From positions 1 to 42,621 of the forward strand of contig CALXXD010000008.1 of the NCBI GenBank assembly GCA_944392595.1: a stretch of 42,621 bases of DNA, given 5' to 3'. Position numbers and translations under genes: made by a program. Under the pieces are notes generated by a model. It searched no databases. It was not told where the DNA came from and saw nothing but the letters and a program-made list of their open reading frames with translations. This document shows positions 14,010 through 41,955 of this stretch, piece after piece. Origin of the DNA: an uncultured Alphaproteobacteria bacterium. Its GTDB lineage: Bacteria; Pseudomonadota; Alphaproteobacteria; Rs-D84. Within the stretch, counting starts at the first letter, position 1, and every line of letters starts with the position of its first letter.

Positions 14010-14412
14010 AAAAAACACCCGCACAAGGCGGGTGGTTTTATTTCTGGGGCGGATGACCGGATTATTTCGCTGCGCTTCATCACCTTGCAAAATTGTGCGT
14101 ACGCACAACCGGCGTACTTCCGTCCGCCTTTTTGCGGCGGTTCGACCGGCTTTCTCGCCGGTTCTTATCCGCATCCTTGCACATAAATAAAAACACCCCA
14201 AACAGGGTGTTTTTATTTCTGGGGCGGATGACCGGTCACCTTCGTTGGGCAATGAATTGCCCAACTTCGTATTGTTCGCGACTGCGCGCTCACCACTCGT
14301 ATTCGCTCGGCTGCGCTGACGCTTGCCTTGCGTACTCGTATGCGAACCTCCGGTTCGAACCCGACCCGTCCAGAGTTATAAAAACACCCGCACAAGGCGG
14401 GTGGTTTTATAA
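14010..14412 (-). repeat. array of tRNA-His 3' tails, terminators and inserted short elements
   Basis: This gene-free stretch reads best on the minus strand, downstream of tRNA-His. The last 17 bases of tRNA-His including CCA (plus strand CTGGGGCGGATGACCGG) recur at 14219-14235 and 14044-14060. Each copy is followed by a terminator hairpin; those at 14016-14034 and 14386-14404 share the CACCCGC/GCGGGTG stem of the true gene. Each tail is preceded by a different insert: about 79 bases at 14062-14140 (a second copy lies at 41314-41392) and about 110 bases at 14236-14350. Both inserts begin right after a T-loop-like TCGAA. The pattern suggests repeated integration of tiny elements at the T-loop of tRNA-His. 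Confidence 0.7.
14379..14408 (-). terminator. terminator of tRNA-His
   Basis: CACCCGC and GCGGGTG arms with a five-base loop, and a T run on the minus strand just after the tRNA CCA end. Confidence 0.7.
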
Positions 14413-14413
14413 C

Positions 14414-14491
14414 TGGGGCGGATGACCGGATTCGAACCGGCGACATTTGGTACCACAAACCAACGCTCTAACCAGCTGAGCTACATCCGCC
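14414..14491 (-). tRNA. tRNA-His (GTG)
   Basis: A full cloverleaf can be drawn. The acceptor GCGGATG pairs with CATCCGC, with an additional 5' G (G-1) opposite discriminator C73, the histidine identity feature. The anticodon stem TTGGT/ACCAA holds a loop with anticodon GTG, the T-arm is GCCGG TTCGAAT CCGGT and the CCA is encoded. Confidence 0.95.
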
Positions 14492-29519: not shown

Positions 29520-29624
29520 TGAAAAAAATTCACTTTCTTCTTTACTATTTTTTTTCTTTCATATAAAATGAAAGTAAGAACAAAAAGTTTTGTTCTATCC
29601 AAAAATAAAATAAAGGAGAGAAGA

Positions 29625-29975
29625 ATGGCATTCACATTCTTGAAGCCAGCCGCCAAGAAAGCCGCCGCGAAAAAGCCAGCGGCAAAACCGGCTGCAAAAA
29701 AAGTTGTCGCGAAAAAACCAGCGGCAAAAAAACCAGTTGCAAAAAAAGTCGTTGCAAAGAAAGCGCCTGCGAAAAAAGTAGCAGTTAAAAAAGCAGCGGT
29801 GAAAAAACCGGTTGCAAAAAAAGTCGTTGCAAAGAAAGCACCTGCGAAAAAAGTAGCAGTTAAAAAAGCAGCGGTGAAAAAACCAGTTGCAAAGAAAGTT
29901 GTTGCAAAAAAAGCACCTGCAAAAAAAACAGTTGCAAAAAAGCCTGTTAAAAAAGCATGTGCAAAAAGAAAATAA
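29625..29975 (+). CDS. histone H1-like Lys/Ala/Pro-rich protein
   Basis: 116 residues, almost entirely K, A, P and V after MAFTFLK. A 25-residue unit ([25 protein letters not shown]) is repeated about two and a half times, mirrored by 75-base DNA repeats. Such sequences resemble eukaryote-like H1 tails and bacterial HC1/AlgP-type DNA-binding proteins, which condense nucleic acid by charge. A strong AAAGGAGAGA site precedes ATG 29625 and a strong terminator follows. It sits between scaffold and capsid genes, which is unusual; it may condense packaged DNA or be an unrelated chromosomal insertion. Confidence 0.75.
29700..29935 (+). repeat. 75-base tandem repeats within the histone-like gene
   Basis: Two nearly identical 75-base units and a partial third, encoding the 25-residue motif described above. 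Such repeats can change in number by slippage or recombination. Confidence 0.7.
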
Positions 29976-29987
29976 TTTTCTGATATA

Positions 29988-36368: not shown

Positions 36369-37922
36369 TTACAATGGAATATCGTCGGGTATTGAATCAA
36401 CATCCACAGGCGTGGGCTCGATATCATCAGTTATTGGTGCAGCGATGGTTGGCGCGTTATCAAAACTGTTTTCGCCACGTGCGGCAATTTCGTCCAGGTT
36501 GTCGAACAAACTGTAATCGCCAAAGAACGCCAAATGCACAGTCTCGGGCCGGCCATGGCGGTTTTTACCGATGATAACGTCGGCCTTGCCGCGTGCGCGT
36601 TCCAATCGTTTTTGGAAACTTTCGATAATTTTTTCGTTGGCGTTACCAGATATACGCTGGGACGGATCGCGATTTTCCAGATAATATTCTTCGCGATATG
36701 TAAACATAACAATATCGGCGTCTTGCTCGATTGACCCAGATTCACGCAAATCGGACAATTGTGGTCGTTTATCATCACGTGATTCGACGCTGCGCGACAA
36801 TTGTGACAATGCGATGACCGGAACATCCAATTCTTTGGCCAGCATTTTTAACCCGCGGGTGATTTCAGAAATTTCCTGGACACGGTTATCCTTGTTTTTT
36901 CCGCCCGGCGACGTCATTAATTGCAGATAATCGATAACGATTAAAGCAATGCCGTTATACTTTCGCGCCAAACGACGTGCGCGCGTGCGAATCATCGGCA
37001 CAGACATCCCCGGCGTATCATCGATGCACAGCGGCACTTTGCCAATCGCATCGGCGTATTGAGACATTTTCAAAAAATCTTCATCGGTCAGTGACCCTTC
37101 GCGCATGGCGGATGCAGGTATCTTTGATTGCGACGACAAAACGCGCGCAGCCAATTGGGAACGTGACATTTCCAAACTGAAAAACACAACCGCCCCGCGA
37201 TAGCGTTCATTTGCGCGTCCGTACAGTATCGCATTGGCCGCATTAAATGCAATATTCATTGCCAGTGTCGTTTTACCCATGGCGGGACGACCGGCGATAA
37301 TAATTAAATCGGAATGGTGCAGGCCACTTATTGATTTATCCAACGCATTCAATCCTGTGGTCAAACCAGATAACTGCCCATCGGCCTTGTATGCGATTTC
37401 AGCCTCGCGCAGGGCGTCTTGTAACGCGTCGCCAATGGTTGCGATTTCGCGTTCTGATACGCCGGTCGAAGCCATTTCAAATAATTTTTGTTCCGCCGTT
37501 TCGATTTGCGCGGAAACTGGGTTGTCCAAATCTTCGACGAACGCAGCGTCCGTTATGGATTGCCCCAGATTAATTAATTCACGCCGCATGGCGTTTTCAT
37601 AAACTATGCGGCCATATTGTTCAACATTAACAACGGTTGCGCCCGCAGATGACAATTGGGTCAGATATTCGACACCGCCGACGGATTCCAACACACCTTG
37701 TTGGTCCAGGTAATTTTTTGCGGTGATAATATCAAACGGAATTCCTGCGGCAAATTGCCGTTCAGCCAACTTATAAATTTCTTGGTGTGCAGGATGCGAA
37801 AAATGTTCAGGTCTTAAAAATTCAGATACACGTTCCAACGCGCGGTTATTCATCAGCACCGCGGCCAAGACAGCCTGTTCGGCTTCCAGATTCGTTGGCA
37901 AAGTCTTTGGGGTAAAGTCCAT
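36369..37922 (-). CDS. dnaB: replicative DNA helicase DnaB
   Basis: The hexameric helicase of the replication fork. The N-terminal domain starts MDFTPKTLPTNLEAEQAVLAAV. The RecA-like domain has Walker A GRPAMGKTT (about 211-219), VVFFSLEMS, Walker B LIVIDYLQLM and the DLRESGSIEQDADIVMF block. 517 residues. The full bacterial type, with strong alphaproteobacterial character, points to the chromosomal gene rather than a phage helicase. The usual neighbours rplI and alr/radA are absent. The ATG overlaps the first ATG of the terminase C-terminal frame on the other strand. A -35/-10 pair (37952-37957, 37930-37935) just upstream suggests a near-leaderless transcript. Confidence 0.94.
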   Translation of the reverse strand: MDFTPKTLPTNLEAEQAVLAAVLMNNRALERVSEFLRPEHFSHPAHQEIYKLAERQFAAGIPFDIITAKNYLDQQGVLESVGGVEYLTQLSSAGATVVNVEQYGRIVYENAMRRELINLGQSITDAAFVEDLDNPVSAQIETAEQKLFEMASTGVSEREIATIGDALQDALREAEIAYKADGQLSGLTTGLNALDKSISGLHHSDLIIIAGRPAMGKTTLAMNIAFNAANAILYGRANERYRGAVVFFSLEMSRSQLAARVLSSQSKIPASAMREGSLTDEDFLKMSQYADAIGKVPLCIDDTPGMSVPMIRTRARRLARKYNGIALIVIDYLQLMTSPGGKNKDNRVQEISEITRGLKMLAKELDVPVIALSQLSRSVESRDDKRPQLSDLRESGSIEQDADIVMFTYREEYYLENRDPSQRISGNANEKIIESFQKRLERARGKADVIIGKNRHGRPETVHLAFFGDYSLFDNLDEIAARGENSFDNAPTIAAPITDDIEPTPVDVDSIPDDIPL

Positions 37923-38769
37923 GTCAGATATGGTATATAAAAATTTTGCTTTTTCAACGCCTTTTTTGCGCGGATATCGCGAATTAAAAATTCCGATAAT
38001 TTCCGCCGATGGCACGCCCACGTGGCCCGAATTATTCCCGCCATCACGCATAGATGAATTAAGGGACAGCGTTGGCGCACGATATTTTTCTGCGCAAATG
38101 ATGCTGGAATATATTGCGCCCGATCGTGCGCGTCTGGACCCAGATGCGTTACATATATACAGCGATGAATTTGATGTAACGACCGCGCGCATCGGTACCG
38201 CGCAAATAACGGGTGCAACAATTTATTGGGACCCGTCCAGCGGACACAAAAAATCAGACAACAGCGTATGCGTCCTATTGTACCGCGACGATAAAAACAG
38301 ATGCGCATTCATCCACGATGTTAAATATTTAATTGTCCCGGACGAAGAATTGCATCCGCTGGCACGGCAATGTGAAATGGTAATTGATTTTATGATGCGG
38401 GCGCGACTGCGTCGAATAAGTATTGAAACGAATGGTATCGGCAATGCGTTGCCTGAAATTATGCGCGATGTATCATCGCGACAAAATATCTCGATTTCCA
38501 TAAATCGCGTTACGAATCACATAAAAAAAGAAACCAGAATTTTGGATTCGATTGAACCGATATTAACCGCGGGGCGTCTGTATGCGCACGTTCGCGTTCA
38601 ATCGACGCCATTATTGGCGGAAATGTTGGGATGGACACCGATTGGTGGCACCACACATGATGACGGATTGGATGCTGTGGCGGGCGCGTTGTGCGCCACA
38701 CCAACACCCATTCACCCGTTATCACGTGGTATGCCGACGTTTTCCGCAAACACAGAATTTAAAATCTGA
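37921..38769 (+). CDS. large terminase, C-terminal nuclease half (gene split)
   Basis: 282 residues as an open frame. About the first 13 come from the inserted block and PFLRGYRELKIPIISADGTPTWPE onward is terminase. The RNase H-like nuclease has all three acidic sites: D104 in IYWDPSSGHKKSDNS, E169 in RISIETNGIGNALPE and D247/D248/D251 in THDDGLDAVAG. Linker phrases such as RYFSAQMMLEYIAPDRARLDP are typical of T7-like alphaproteobacterial terminases. ATG 37921 has only a weak GGGG site and no obvious promoter; the dnaB start is directly antisense. If it is translated, the nuclease would be a separate polypeptide. Overlap into the portal region is absent. Confidence 0.8.
   Translation: MSDMVYKNFAFSTPFLRGYRELKIPIISADGTPTWPELFPPSRIDELRDSVGARYFSAQMMLEYIAPDRARLDPDALHIYSDEFDVTTARIGTAQITGATIYWDPSSGHKKSDNSVCVLLYRDDKNRCAFIHDVKYLIVPDEELHPLARQCEMVIDFMMRARLRRISIETNGIGNALPEIMRDVSSRQNISISINRVTNHIKKETRILDSIEPILTAGRLYAHVRVQSTPLLAEMLGWTPIGGTTHDDGLDAVAGALCATPTPIHPLSRGMPTFSANTEFKI
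37930..37957 (-). promoter_or_regulatory. candidate dnaB promoter at the edge of the inserted block
   Basis: On the minus strand TTGAAA, 16 bases, TACCAT, ending seven bases before the dnaB ATG. It lies entirely inside the inserted block, so the block carries a complete transcription unit. Confidence 0.45.
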
Positions 38770-38788
38770 ACCAAGGGAGAAATTAATT

Positions 38789-40021
38789 ATGCAAAAAAAT
38801 TTACAGCAAATGTATCGTCGTGCGTTGGATATGCGTGCGCCATGGATAAATCGTTGGGATGCAGCCATGCGTTACACAATTCCAACAACTGATGACGATG
38901 TGGCGACTTTGTTTGATGCAACCGCATCAGATGCAGCCGACAATTTGGCGGCATCGATTTATTCGTTGCTGACGCCGCCCGAATCACTGTGGGTGTCTTT
39001 GGTACCCGAAGGCCCCGACTCGCCGGACGCAGTTGCGGCAACGATGGCTTTGCGCGCAAATTTGAACGATTCGAATTTTTATACAACAATCCACCAATGC
39101 TATATGGATTTGATAATTTTGGGCACAGCATGCCTGTTTATGGCTGAAAATCCAATTGGTGCCGCGTCTGCGTTTTCATTCACCGCAATTCCCATGCGCG
39201 ACATCGCGATTTTGAATGGCGCAGTATTTCACACTGCAACAATGCCTGCGCGGGAAGTGATGGAAAAATATCCGTCTTGGACACCGCCCGCCAATTTGCG
39301 TGACACGATAAAGCAAGACCCTGAAACGCCATTGCGGTTGGTGCAAAGTTTAATCGGAACCGATTTTGTTGCATGGCTGGACGTTGGCGGCGACATTGAA
39401 AACAATATCGTTGCGACCGGGAAATTCGAAACAAACCCGTACATAATTTTCCGTTGGTCCGTGGCCAGTGGCGAACTGTACGGACGTGGGCCGGTGTTGC
39501 GCGCTTTGCCAGATATAAAAACCGCGAATAAAGTTGTGGAACTGGTATTAAAAAACGCAACGATTGCCGTATCAGGTATATGGCAGGCCGACGATGATGG
39601 CGTGATAAATTTATCGAATATAAACCTGACGCCGGGCGCGATTATTCCAAAGGCTGTCGGTTCATCGGGATTGACGCCATTGGCAACCGGTGCGGATTTT
39701 GATGTTTCTCAAATAATATTAAAAGACCTGCGCGAACGGATACGTCACGCATTATTGGCGGACAGGTTGGGGTTGCTATCTGAAAAAGAAATGACCGCGA
39801 CCGAGATTTTGGCGCGCAACGCGGATATGGTGCGCATACTGGGCGCGACGTATGGGCGTTTGCTGCACGAATTTATCCGCCCATTGGTCGAACGCGGATT
39901 ACAGATTTTATCGCGCCGCGGGGTTATCGACAAAATAAGACTGCACAGTGATGCAGAATTAAAATACATTGCGCCAATTACAAAAATGGCAATTGCTGAA
40001 AATATGACAATGGGGGAATAA
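38789..40021 (+). CDS. portal protein (T7 gp8-like head-tail connector)
   Basis: 410 residues. Twelve copies of this family form the ring through which DNA enters the head. The N-terminus (QQMYRRALDMRAPWINRWDAAMRYTIP), LFDATASDAADNLAASIYSLLTPPESLWVSL, TACLFMAENP, GELYGRGPVLRALPDIKTANKVVELVLKNATIAVSGIW and the C-terminal EMTATEILARNADMVRILGATYGRLLHEFIRPLVERGLQIL block are the classic podovirus connector pattern. It is shorter than T7 gp8 (over 500 residues). A good AAGGGAG site precedes ATG 38789. The gene is intact. Confidence 0.85.
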   Translation: MQKNLQQMYRRALDMRAPWINRWDAAMRYTIPTTDDDVATLFDATASDAADNLAASIYSLLTPPESLWVSLVPEGPDSPDAVAATMALRANLNDSNFYTTIHQCYMDLIILGTACLFMAENPIGAASAFSFTAIPMRDIAILNGAVFHTATMPAREVMEKYPSWTPPANLRDTIKQDPETPLRLVQSLIGTDFVAWLDVGGDIENNIVATGKFETNPYIIFRWSVASGELYGRGPVLRALPDIKTANKVVELVLKNATIAVSGIWQADDDGVINLSNINLTPGAIIPKAVGSSGLTPLATGADFDVSQIILKDLRERIRHALLADRLGLLSEKEMTATEILARNADMVRILGATYGRLLHEFIRPLVERGLQILSRRGVIDKIRLHSDAELKYIAPITKMAIAENMTMGE

Positions 40022-40979: not shown

Positions 40980-41262
40980 CGCACTCTCTTACCACCCCGT
41001 CGGCAAGCCGCCACCCCCCCAATGGAGGGGAACTTTGCCTGCAACGACAACATAACAAGTTCCTCATCTAGCGGAGGGGTGCCCGATACCGGGCCCCGCG
41101 AAAATGCAATTTTCGTGGGTGGTTGGGGCGGGGTGGTTAAATGCCCACCGCCCCTGTTGTGGGGGCGGGGGGTGTCGTGCTTTGCACGACGGGGGGTGGG
41201 GTTTGTCACCCGAAGCCTTAGCGAAGGGTGAAACACGAGTAACTAGTAACGAGTCACGAGTA
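40980..41262. repeat. GC-rich noncoding block with many small inverted repeats
   Basis: This stretch is far richer in G and C than its surroundings and has no credible gene. Dyads include GCCCGATACCGGGC, CCCGCGAAAAT/ATTTTCGTGGG, CACCGCCCC/GGGGCGGGG and GTCGTGC/GCACGAC. It ends in a short stutter of ACGAGTAACT-like words (41234-41264). It looks like a dispersed repeat rather than a gene, perhaps an insertion remnant. Confidence 0.5.
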
Positions 41263-41265
41263 ACT

Positions 41266-41288
41266 AAAATGCCCCGTTGGGGCATTTT
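41266..41288 (-). terminator. hairpin after a tRNA-like tail
   Basis: AAAATGCCCC/GGGGCATTTT with a three-base loop. On the minus strand it follows a CGTCTCCGCCA tail, copying the tail-plus-terminator layout beside tRNA-His. Confidence 0.6.
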
Positions 41289-41500
41289 ACTATTCCTGGC
41301 GGAGACGAAGGGATTATTCCGCTGCGCTTCATCACCTTGCAAAATTGTGCGTACGCACAACCGGCGTACTCCCGTCCGCCTTTTTGCGGCGGTTCGAACC
41401 CTCGCCCCCGGGTTCGAATCCACATTATCAAACACAATAAAAAATCACGCCCATACGGGCGTAATTATTTATTGTGGCGGTGTGGAAATAATCTACGGCG
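41289..41500 (-). repeat. second tRNA-tail array with a copy of the 79-base element
   Basis: On the minus strand there is a T-arm-like GAGGGTTCGAA (end at 41393). Then comes the 79-base element (41314-41392, two mismatches to 14062-14140), then TCCCTTCGTCTCCGCCA, the 3' end of a tRNA (probably Ser-type) without its 5' part. Upstream on that strand, a further CACACCGCCACA tail is followed by a hairpin (41443-41460, ACGCCC/GGGCGT). The element thus interrupts a different tRNA tail at the same T-loop position as in the His array. Confidence 0.6.
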
Positions 41501-41955
41501 AACGCCATACAACAAAATACAGGGATTAACAGGGAATTTTGACGGTTTTGGCGACCATATTTTCACCCACCGCGCCCAATTTCCGCGACTTTTGCAAAAA
41601 TTCACGCAAAAATAACAGGGAATTTGATTTCATAAAACAGGGATTTTACTCACATACATCAGGGAATACCCCCACTCCACCCGTGCCAAGGTATAGATTG
41701 CCATTATTTGCTGATAACCCGAAAAATCATTTCAAAAACATCAAATTATTTTGAATACAAACCTAAAAACTATGCGATTTTATCTATTTTTTGGAGTACA
41801 AACATAAAACTTATCGCCAATTATATCGCTAATTCCACCCCCATAAATTAGCGATATTTTGTATTATTTGGTAATTATCTGGGAAAAAATATTGGCTTTC
41901 TGGGAACTATCTGGTAATATCAGGTAAAACATTAACAATCCCAAAAGGATACAGA
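41501..41955. other. noncoding region with CAGGGA words and a palindrome
   Basis: No credible gene. The word CAGGGA(A/T)T recurs five times at about 41520, 41530, 41616, 41638 and 41660. An AT-rich part then leads to a 12-base inverted repeat ATATCGCTAATT/AATTAGCGATAT (41823-41834, 41846-41857), about 100 bases before the gene at 41956. The palindrome may be an operator or a weak terminator. AAAAGGA just before ATG 41956 is the ribosome-binding site. Confidence 0.45.

Follow-up and report, generated by a model that had tools for sequence, protein, structure and literature searches.

By its sequence, the type A core is the folded, RNA-like centre of a small non-coding module that stands behind many tRNAs. 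The module is probably an alphaproteobacterial tRNA-linked repeat (TLR), that is, a non-coding unit with a conserved fold and tRNA 3' ends as its borders, for which recombination, transfer of the core and a read-through RNA may be assumed. As far as sequences can be compared, its plan is already known from the E. coli TLRs, and the alphaproteobacterial core appears as newly seen and distant. A second, unrelated-looking core in the same tRNA-derived wrapping gives the TLR class a general plan, and the alphaproteobacterial modules supply a comparative data set with filled and empty sites; the origin and function of TLRs thereby become testable. Since the inverted and the split T-arm occur in both groups, E. 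coli and Alphaproteobacteria, the wrapping and not the core sequence is suggested to define the class.

Two copies in one contig

The window, i.e. the whole analysed stretch of 42,621 nucleotides, comes from a 0.98 Mb genome assembled in 15 contigs, of which it is contig 8. The nearest named relatives belong to Candidatus Enterousia, a group of gut-dwelling Alphaproteobacteria whose genomes are reduced (order Rs-D84) (PMC12306168). Positions 14062-14140 and 41314-41392 of the window are identical at 77 of 79 positions, in agreement with the two mismatches given in the preliminary description, and their flanks differ by tRNA. This pair is one of the few long repeat families detected by the repeat search; shuffled windows contained zero repeated 20-mers. 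When read on the minus strand, the first copy ends in AATCCGGTCATCCGCCCCA (14063-14045), identical to the 3' end of the tRNA-His at 14414-14490, and the second one ends in AATCCCTTCGTCTCCGCCA (41315-41297), a tRNA-Ser 3' end. In both copies a GG(T)TCGA half precedes the core, so that the setting described earlier, between a T-loop half and a tRNA 3' end of Ser instead of His type in the second copy, was recovered with both halves. The interruption of a tRNA tail, also described there, applies to the partial copy of the tRNA 3' end, which is split, but not to a tRNA gene itself within the window. The His copy lies behind the intact tRNA-His, within a partial duplicate of the 3' end of this tRNA; for the Ser copy no intact tRNA was found within the window by ARAGORN or by sequence. 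Segmental duplication is ruled out because the flanks vary with the local tRNA and do not follow the repeat.

All parts of the first array are on the minus strand. The host tRNA-His(GTG) occupies 14414-14490 (ARAGORN) and is followed by a type C module at 14220-14413 (sequence, repeat family D3), containing a terminator, an inverted T-arm (14372-14346), a different core and a copy of the tRNA-His 3' end (14235-14220). Both tRNA-His modules are separated by a terminator-like hairpin, AATAAAAACACCC..GGGTGTTTTTATT, at 14186-14219. The type A module then presents the inverted T-arm/acceptor of tRNA-His, AGGATGCGGATAAGAACCGGCG (14156-14177), the T-arm 5' half, GCCGGTCGA (14142-14150), the core at 14064-14141 (79-bp repeat 14062-14140; match to the covariance model R1 at 14148-14073, E 2.9e-21), and the T-arm 3' half with the acceptor 3' strand and CCA, identical to tRNA-His (14045-14063). 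The second copy, on the same strand, begins after a terminator-like hairpin at 41432-41473 and comprises an inverted T-arm, GGATTCGAACCC (41410-41421), the T-arm 5' half, GGGTTCGA (41394-41401), the core at 41316-41393 (79-bp repeat 41314-41392; R1 match 41400-41325, E 2.3e-23), and the T-arm 3' half, acceptor 3' strand and CCA of tRNA-Ser at 41297-41315, with 0/18 mismatches to tRNA-Ser 3' ends; another terminator-like hairpin follows at 41258-41296. Two further, more distant copies of the own genome are located behind tRNA-Pro(CGG) and tRNA-Arg(TCT).

The second copy adjoins a phage remnant with a terminase (37921-38769) and a head-tail connector (38582-40021). On its other side, near the contig end, there are three CAGGGAA repeats at 41530-41660; similar TTCCCTG repeats occur beside orphan tRNA-Ser-type copies in genomes G104, G137 and G028, and these repeats are possibly integrase arm sites. 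The tRNA-Ser(GGA) of the own genome faces outward near one end of contig 2, at a distance of 228 bases, and for this reason this end and that of the window contig may join. By way of a guess, the second copy may then be a displaced tRNA-Ser module. The complete genome G104 has a copy of the same lineage (79366) on the strand of its tRNA-Ser(GGA) (22800), 56 kb further downstream.

Module plan, host tRNAs and turnover

Nearly every copy in the congeners has the same order of parts. An intact tRNA with CCA is followed, usually after a terminator-like hairpin, by an inverted T-arm (partly with the acceptor) and a short loop, then by the T-arm 5' half (GGTTCGA), the core, and the T-arm 3' half and acceptor 3' strand of the same tRNA up to CCA. 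The core measures about 60-90 nt and the whole unit about 110-175 bp; the loci hold from single units to fourfold arrays. Modules at tRNA-Arg(CCT) and at one tRNA-Glu have no terminator and begin almost at CCA (gap 16-24).

Genome-wide counting of the copies and their flanks, as the preliminary description had proposed, revealed a fixed site at T-loops. An intact tRNA on the same strand was found 16-653 bases upstream in 73 of the 87 copies, 12 anticodons being represented, and most of the other 14 end in a recognisable tRNA 3' end. A position after TTCGAA in every copy holds in so far as GGTTCGA is the usual T-arm 5' half, but GGTCCGA, GGTTTGA and GGTTCA are found where the host tRNA differs, the half thus tracking its host. 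The last 18 bases of the upstream tRNA are repeated exactly in 44 of 72 testable copies and are partly or largely decayed in the remainder, with on average 2.0 mismatches of the 3' end to the own tRNA versus 4.7 to the best other tRNA. The inverted T-arm scored higher with the own tRNA than the mean of the other tRNAs in 68/69 copies; the scores of the other tRNAs also exceeded those of shuffles, since the palindromic TTCGAA contributes part of the signal.

In the R1 search, 83 of 115 congeners (Ca. Enterousia) carried type A, with up to 10 copies per genome. A genus-specific family, as suggested by BLAST, was rejected upon matches of the covariance model in 5/20 genera of the order. The further genera are g20, g21, g4 and g9, in which the copies are located mostly behind tRNAs Glu, Met, Gln, Gly, Ser and Tyr and usually possess the 3' ends of these tRNAs.

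The site at tRNA-Arg(CCT) is filled in some species and empty in others. Five genomes have type A units at this place and one has another module (type B); in most other genomes 15-45 bases separate the CCA from the start codon of the next gene, which is conserved. A tree of this gene, with modest support, requires 4 changes to explain the five filled sites. Exact tandem units were found at tRNA-Arg(CCT) in G094 (110 bp) and at tRNA-His in G087 (four units of 164 bp). At one more array (L116, G081:C2), the upstream tRNA-Arg(TCT) has an intact 3' half and a replaced 5' half and is followed by two type A units.

The nearest neighbour of a core sits behind the same tRNA in other species in 62% of cases versus 10.6% in shuffles, and in the same genome in 1.7%. 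Sharing of cores by genome rather than by tRNA was thereby rejected; such a grouping, mostly by tRNA, does not resemble an element that hops freely. The window pair departs from this grouping, as its Ser copy combines Ser-type flanks with a His-type core. Judged from the sequence, this core could be read as a product of conversion or of transfer of the core alone.

Core fold and comparison with E. coli TLRs

As modelled, the fold of the type A core is backed by strong compensatory base changes. The covariance model R1 was built from 29 cores, whose alignment has 92% standard pairs and a covariation score reached by no shuffle. After adding the other genera, 92% of cells were paired and double changes were present in 13 of 16 pairs, with none of 500 shuffles being as good; the double-change cells numbered 173 versus 49 in shuffles, and the paired share went down to 24-40% in slid controls. 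This alignment was fitted to the model, and plain helix sequences therefore also count: the helix GCAAAA/TTTTGC reads GATTTT/AAAATC, GCGGTT/AACCGC, GAAAAT/ATTTTC or GGCAAT/ATTGCC in other copies, including those of other genera. A simple helix script did not recover the counterpart of GCAAAA/TTTTGC in the loci L299, L300 and L308, where other or shorter helices were chosen. The hairpins noticed in the preliminary description are present in the sequence, but covariation backs GCAAAA/TTTTGC, GGCG/CGCC and TTGTGC/GCACAA instead. In single-sequence folds the inverted T-arm is predicted to pair with the split T-arm, which leaves three elements, namely the closed stem, the T-arm hairpin and the core; this closed fold is clearest for tRNA-Arg(CCT) (z -3.7) and less clear for the other tRNAs.

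Read-through transcripts of the tRNA could accordingly be pictured in the closed form, with the core protruding from them as a three-way-junction RNA that would be selected for its fold. Transcription by read-through from the tRNA is most likely by analogy with the rRNA-linked E. coli TLRs, for which it has been reported. A terminator-like hairpin lies between tRNA and module in many copies, so that co-transcription would need read-through. The fold may belong to a host small RNA or serve the module's own spread, with a slight preference for a transcribed RNA.

The E. coli TLRs comprise 22 members at ten loci, and their last 18-19 bp exactly match the 3' terminus of the tRNA or rRNA before them (PMC8144298). 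They have been known since 1978; their function is unknown apart from the three rRNA-linked members studied, the members in tRNA operons being without known function (PMC8144298). In E. coli K-12, ten TLR units were found in eight stretches. The first TLR seen was the 178-bp tyrT repeat (Rfam RF00391, RtT). An inverted T-arm followed by a T-arm 5' half was detected behind tyrT, tyrV, lysV and lysQ (L281, L282, L288, L290), with 0/200 shuffles as good; 6 of the 10 units examined, mostly between tRNAs, are without a clear inverted T-arm. The tyrT unit is predicted to adopt the same closed form as the type A modules, and the minimum-energy fold of the lysV/lysQ unit has the T-arm hairpin and lacks the closing stem.

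Like the type A modules, the E. coli TLRs are situated directly behind a tRNA on the same strand, repeat its 18-19 3' bases from the T-loop on, and form tandem copies. At lysV and lysQ the terminator precedes the module, as in most type A loci. The rrA, rrB and rrF TLRs likewise lie between two terminators, but they stand behind 5S rRNA and bind Hfq and CsrA in vitro (PMC8144298). The core sequence and helices differ between both groups, and type A, being alphaproteobacterial, places a single core family behind a dozen or more tRNAs. R1 with default filters matched no E. coli TLR, and without filters it reached only 11 bits. The Rfam RtT model, which is built on E. coli-type sequences, gave at best 29 bits in 39 congeners at a gathering cut-off of 45 bits; among the matches listed, all below this threshold, 3/4 were type A units (G007, G025, G002), far above their genome share. 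Membership in a known Rfam family was rejected, there being no credible match other than tRNA. Common descent of the type A modules and the E. coli TLRs is likely; it is not established, because the R1 and RtT scores are too low.

Origin of the modules and the tRNA-Ser(GGA) hotspot

For an alphaproteobacterial TLR, whole units could duplicate or vanish by recombination between the directly repeated tRNA 3' ends, which would leave the tRNA unharmed. The core alone would occasionally move, or be converted, into the module of another tRNA, and for this reason the flanks would always match the local tRNA. The mobile T-loop family proposed in the preliminary description stands as regards the family itself, its precise position relative to T-loops and its species-variable presence, but a search near the copies gave no gene for a recombinase or transposase, and the cores keep mainly to their tRNAs. 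The type A module is not a classical transposon: a MITE or insertion sequence was rejected, as there are no element-specific terminal inverted repeats and the inverted repeat is the T-arm of the host tRNA, varying with it.

An unlikely alternative is a non-autonomous integrative mini-element, which a tyrosine integrase acting in trans would insert at the T-arm together with a replacement tRNA 3' end, in the manner of an island. Integrases are known to target T-loops (PMC1762012), and islands leave behind a displaced fragment along with the regenerated target (PMC4383910). The direct repeat from T-loop to CCA at both ends, the existence of filled and empty sites, and the occurrence behind tRNA-Ser of several unrelated cores that have their borders in common agree with such an insertion. 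Regenerated tRNA, displaced 3' fragment and T-loop position are also what type A has in common with the T-loop islands and prophages at class II integrase sites (Ms6, PMC1762012; Islander, PMC4383910). Unlike them, type A measures only about 110-175 bp, has no integrase, does not hold the whole T-loop on both sides and contains a covarying RNA core. The 3' repeat of 18-19 bp is common to both junctions, but the distal one is without the TTCGA part of the 7-nt T-loop, and a T-loop overlap shared by both sides is thus doubtful. Sequence specific to the tRNA is moreover present in the unit in both orientations, along with a covarying RNA fold, and a simple attP needs neither. Around 30 integrase loci, the flanks contained neither a tRNA nor a core, and the exact patterns of the type A and type B cores were absent from viral contigs. 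Of the integrases of the own genome, two look Xer-like and one is P4-like, none of them near a copy. Neutral duplication, in which the core would be old drift and replication slippage at the palindromic T-arm would have left incomplete and partly inverted copies of tRNA ends, is very improbable. It would account for the inverted and direct T-arm copies, the tandem repeats and a core-less hairpin at tRNA-Ser in G091 (L215), but one core family behind many tRNAs of several genera with compensatory changes is unexpected of slippage, and the double-change counts given above disfavour it.

The last alternative concerns tRNA-Ser(GGA). In two genomes, the sole tRNA-Ser(GGA) found matches only positions 1-74 and then runs straight into the core (L227:655-813 in G116:C2; L177:195-350, minus strand, in G013:C19). 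The gene is composed of the 5' end up to GGGTTCGA, the type A core and AATCCC..CCA, with matching acceptor strands. No second tRNA-Ser(GGA) was found in the G013 and G116 assemblies, which are 91% and 94% complete drafts, and the gene is intact in nearly all other genomes. A self-removing, intron-like insertion would sit in the T-loop of the tRNA gene and be removed from its RNA, an explanation that is very improbable. By this account a tiny RNA element would enter T-loops and be removable from the precursor, the interrupted tRNA-Ser would still yield a tRNA, and the modules would be parking places; such a course of events is very improbable. If it were true, the E. coli TLRs could perhaps be parking places as well. 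The sole interrupted genes with their matching acceptor strands, set beside the intact genes elsewhere, speak for removal. Against it, only two draft genomes are concerned, and a deletion from one CAAGGGTTCGA to the other, the first in the tRNA and the second in the module, would leave an identical sequence. No known intron family in Rfam is matched by the core, and nearly all other copies lie in partial tRNA copies, where splicing would yield nothing.

tRNA-Ser(GGA) is a hotspot with several unrelated modules that have a common 3' border. The type B family, GGTTCGACAACAAGTAGATTT..AAATCGTCACGGTT..GAGGGAAT, has the same tRNA 3' border and was noted behind tRNA-Ser, Met and Arg (L133, L143, L165, L198, L205, L218). 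Further module types at tRNA-Ser(GGA) have an inverted tRNA 3' end at the start and ..TATTGTGTATCGAGG..TTCGTCTCCGCCA at the end; the hairpin at L215 has no core. A relative of the P4-like integrases, of about 340 aa, is encoded near tRNA-Pro and fabF (L272:3078-4124, minus strand, G000:C12) and seems to be without the usual catalytic residues. Since nearly all congeners encode similar proteins of 335-350 aa, it may be a domesticated DNA-binding protein. The window itself contains a 15-nt repeat, seventeen-fold, at 29643-29986, overlapping the ORF 29568-29975, and at the contig end (42515-42592) a palindrome with 42-nt arms, TAATAGAAAAA..TTTTTCTATTA.
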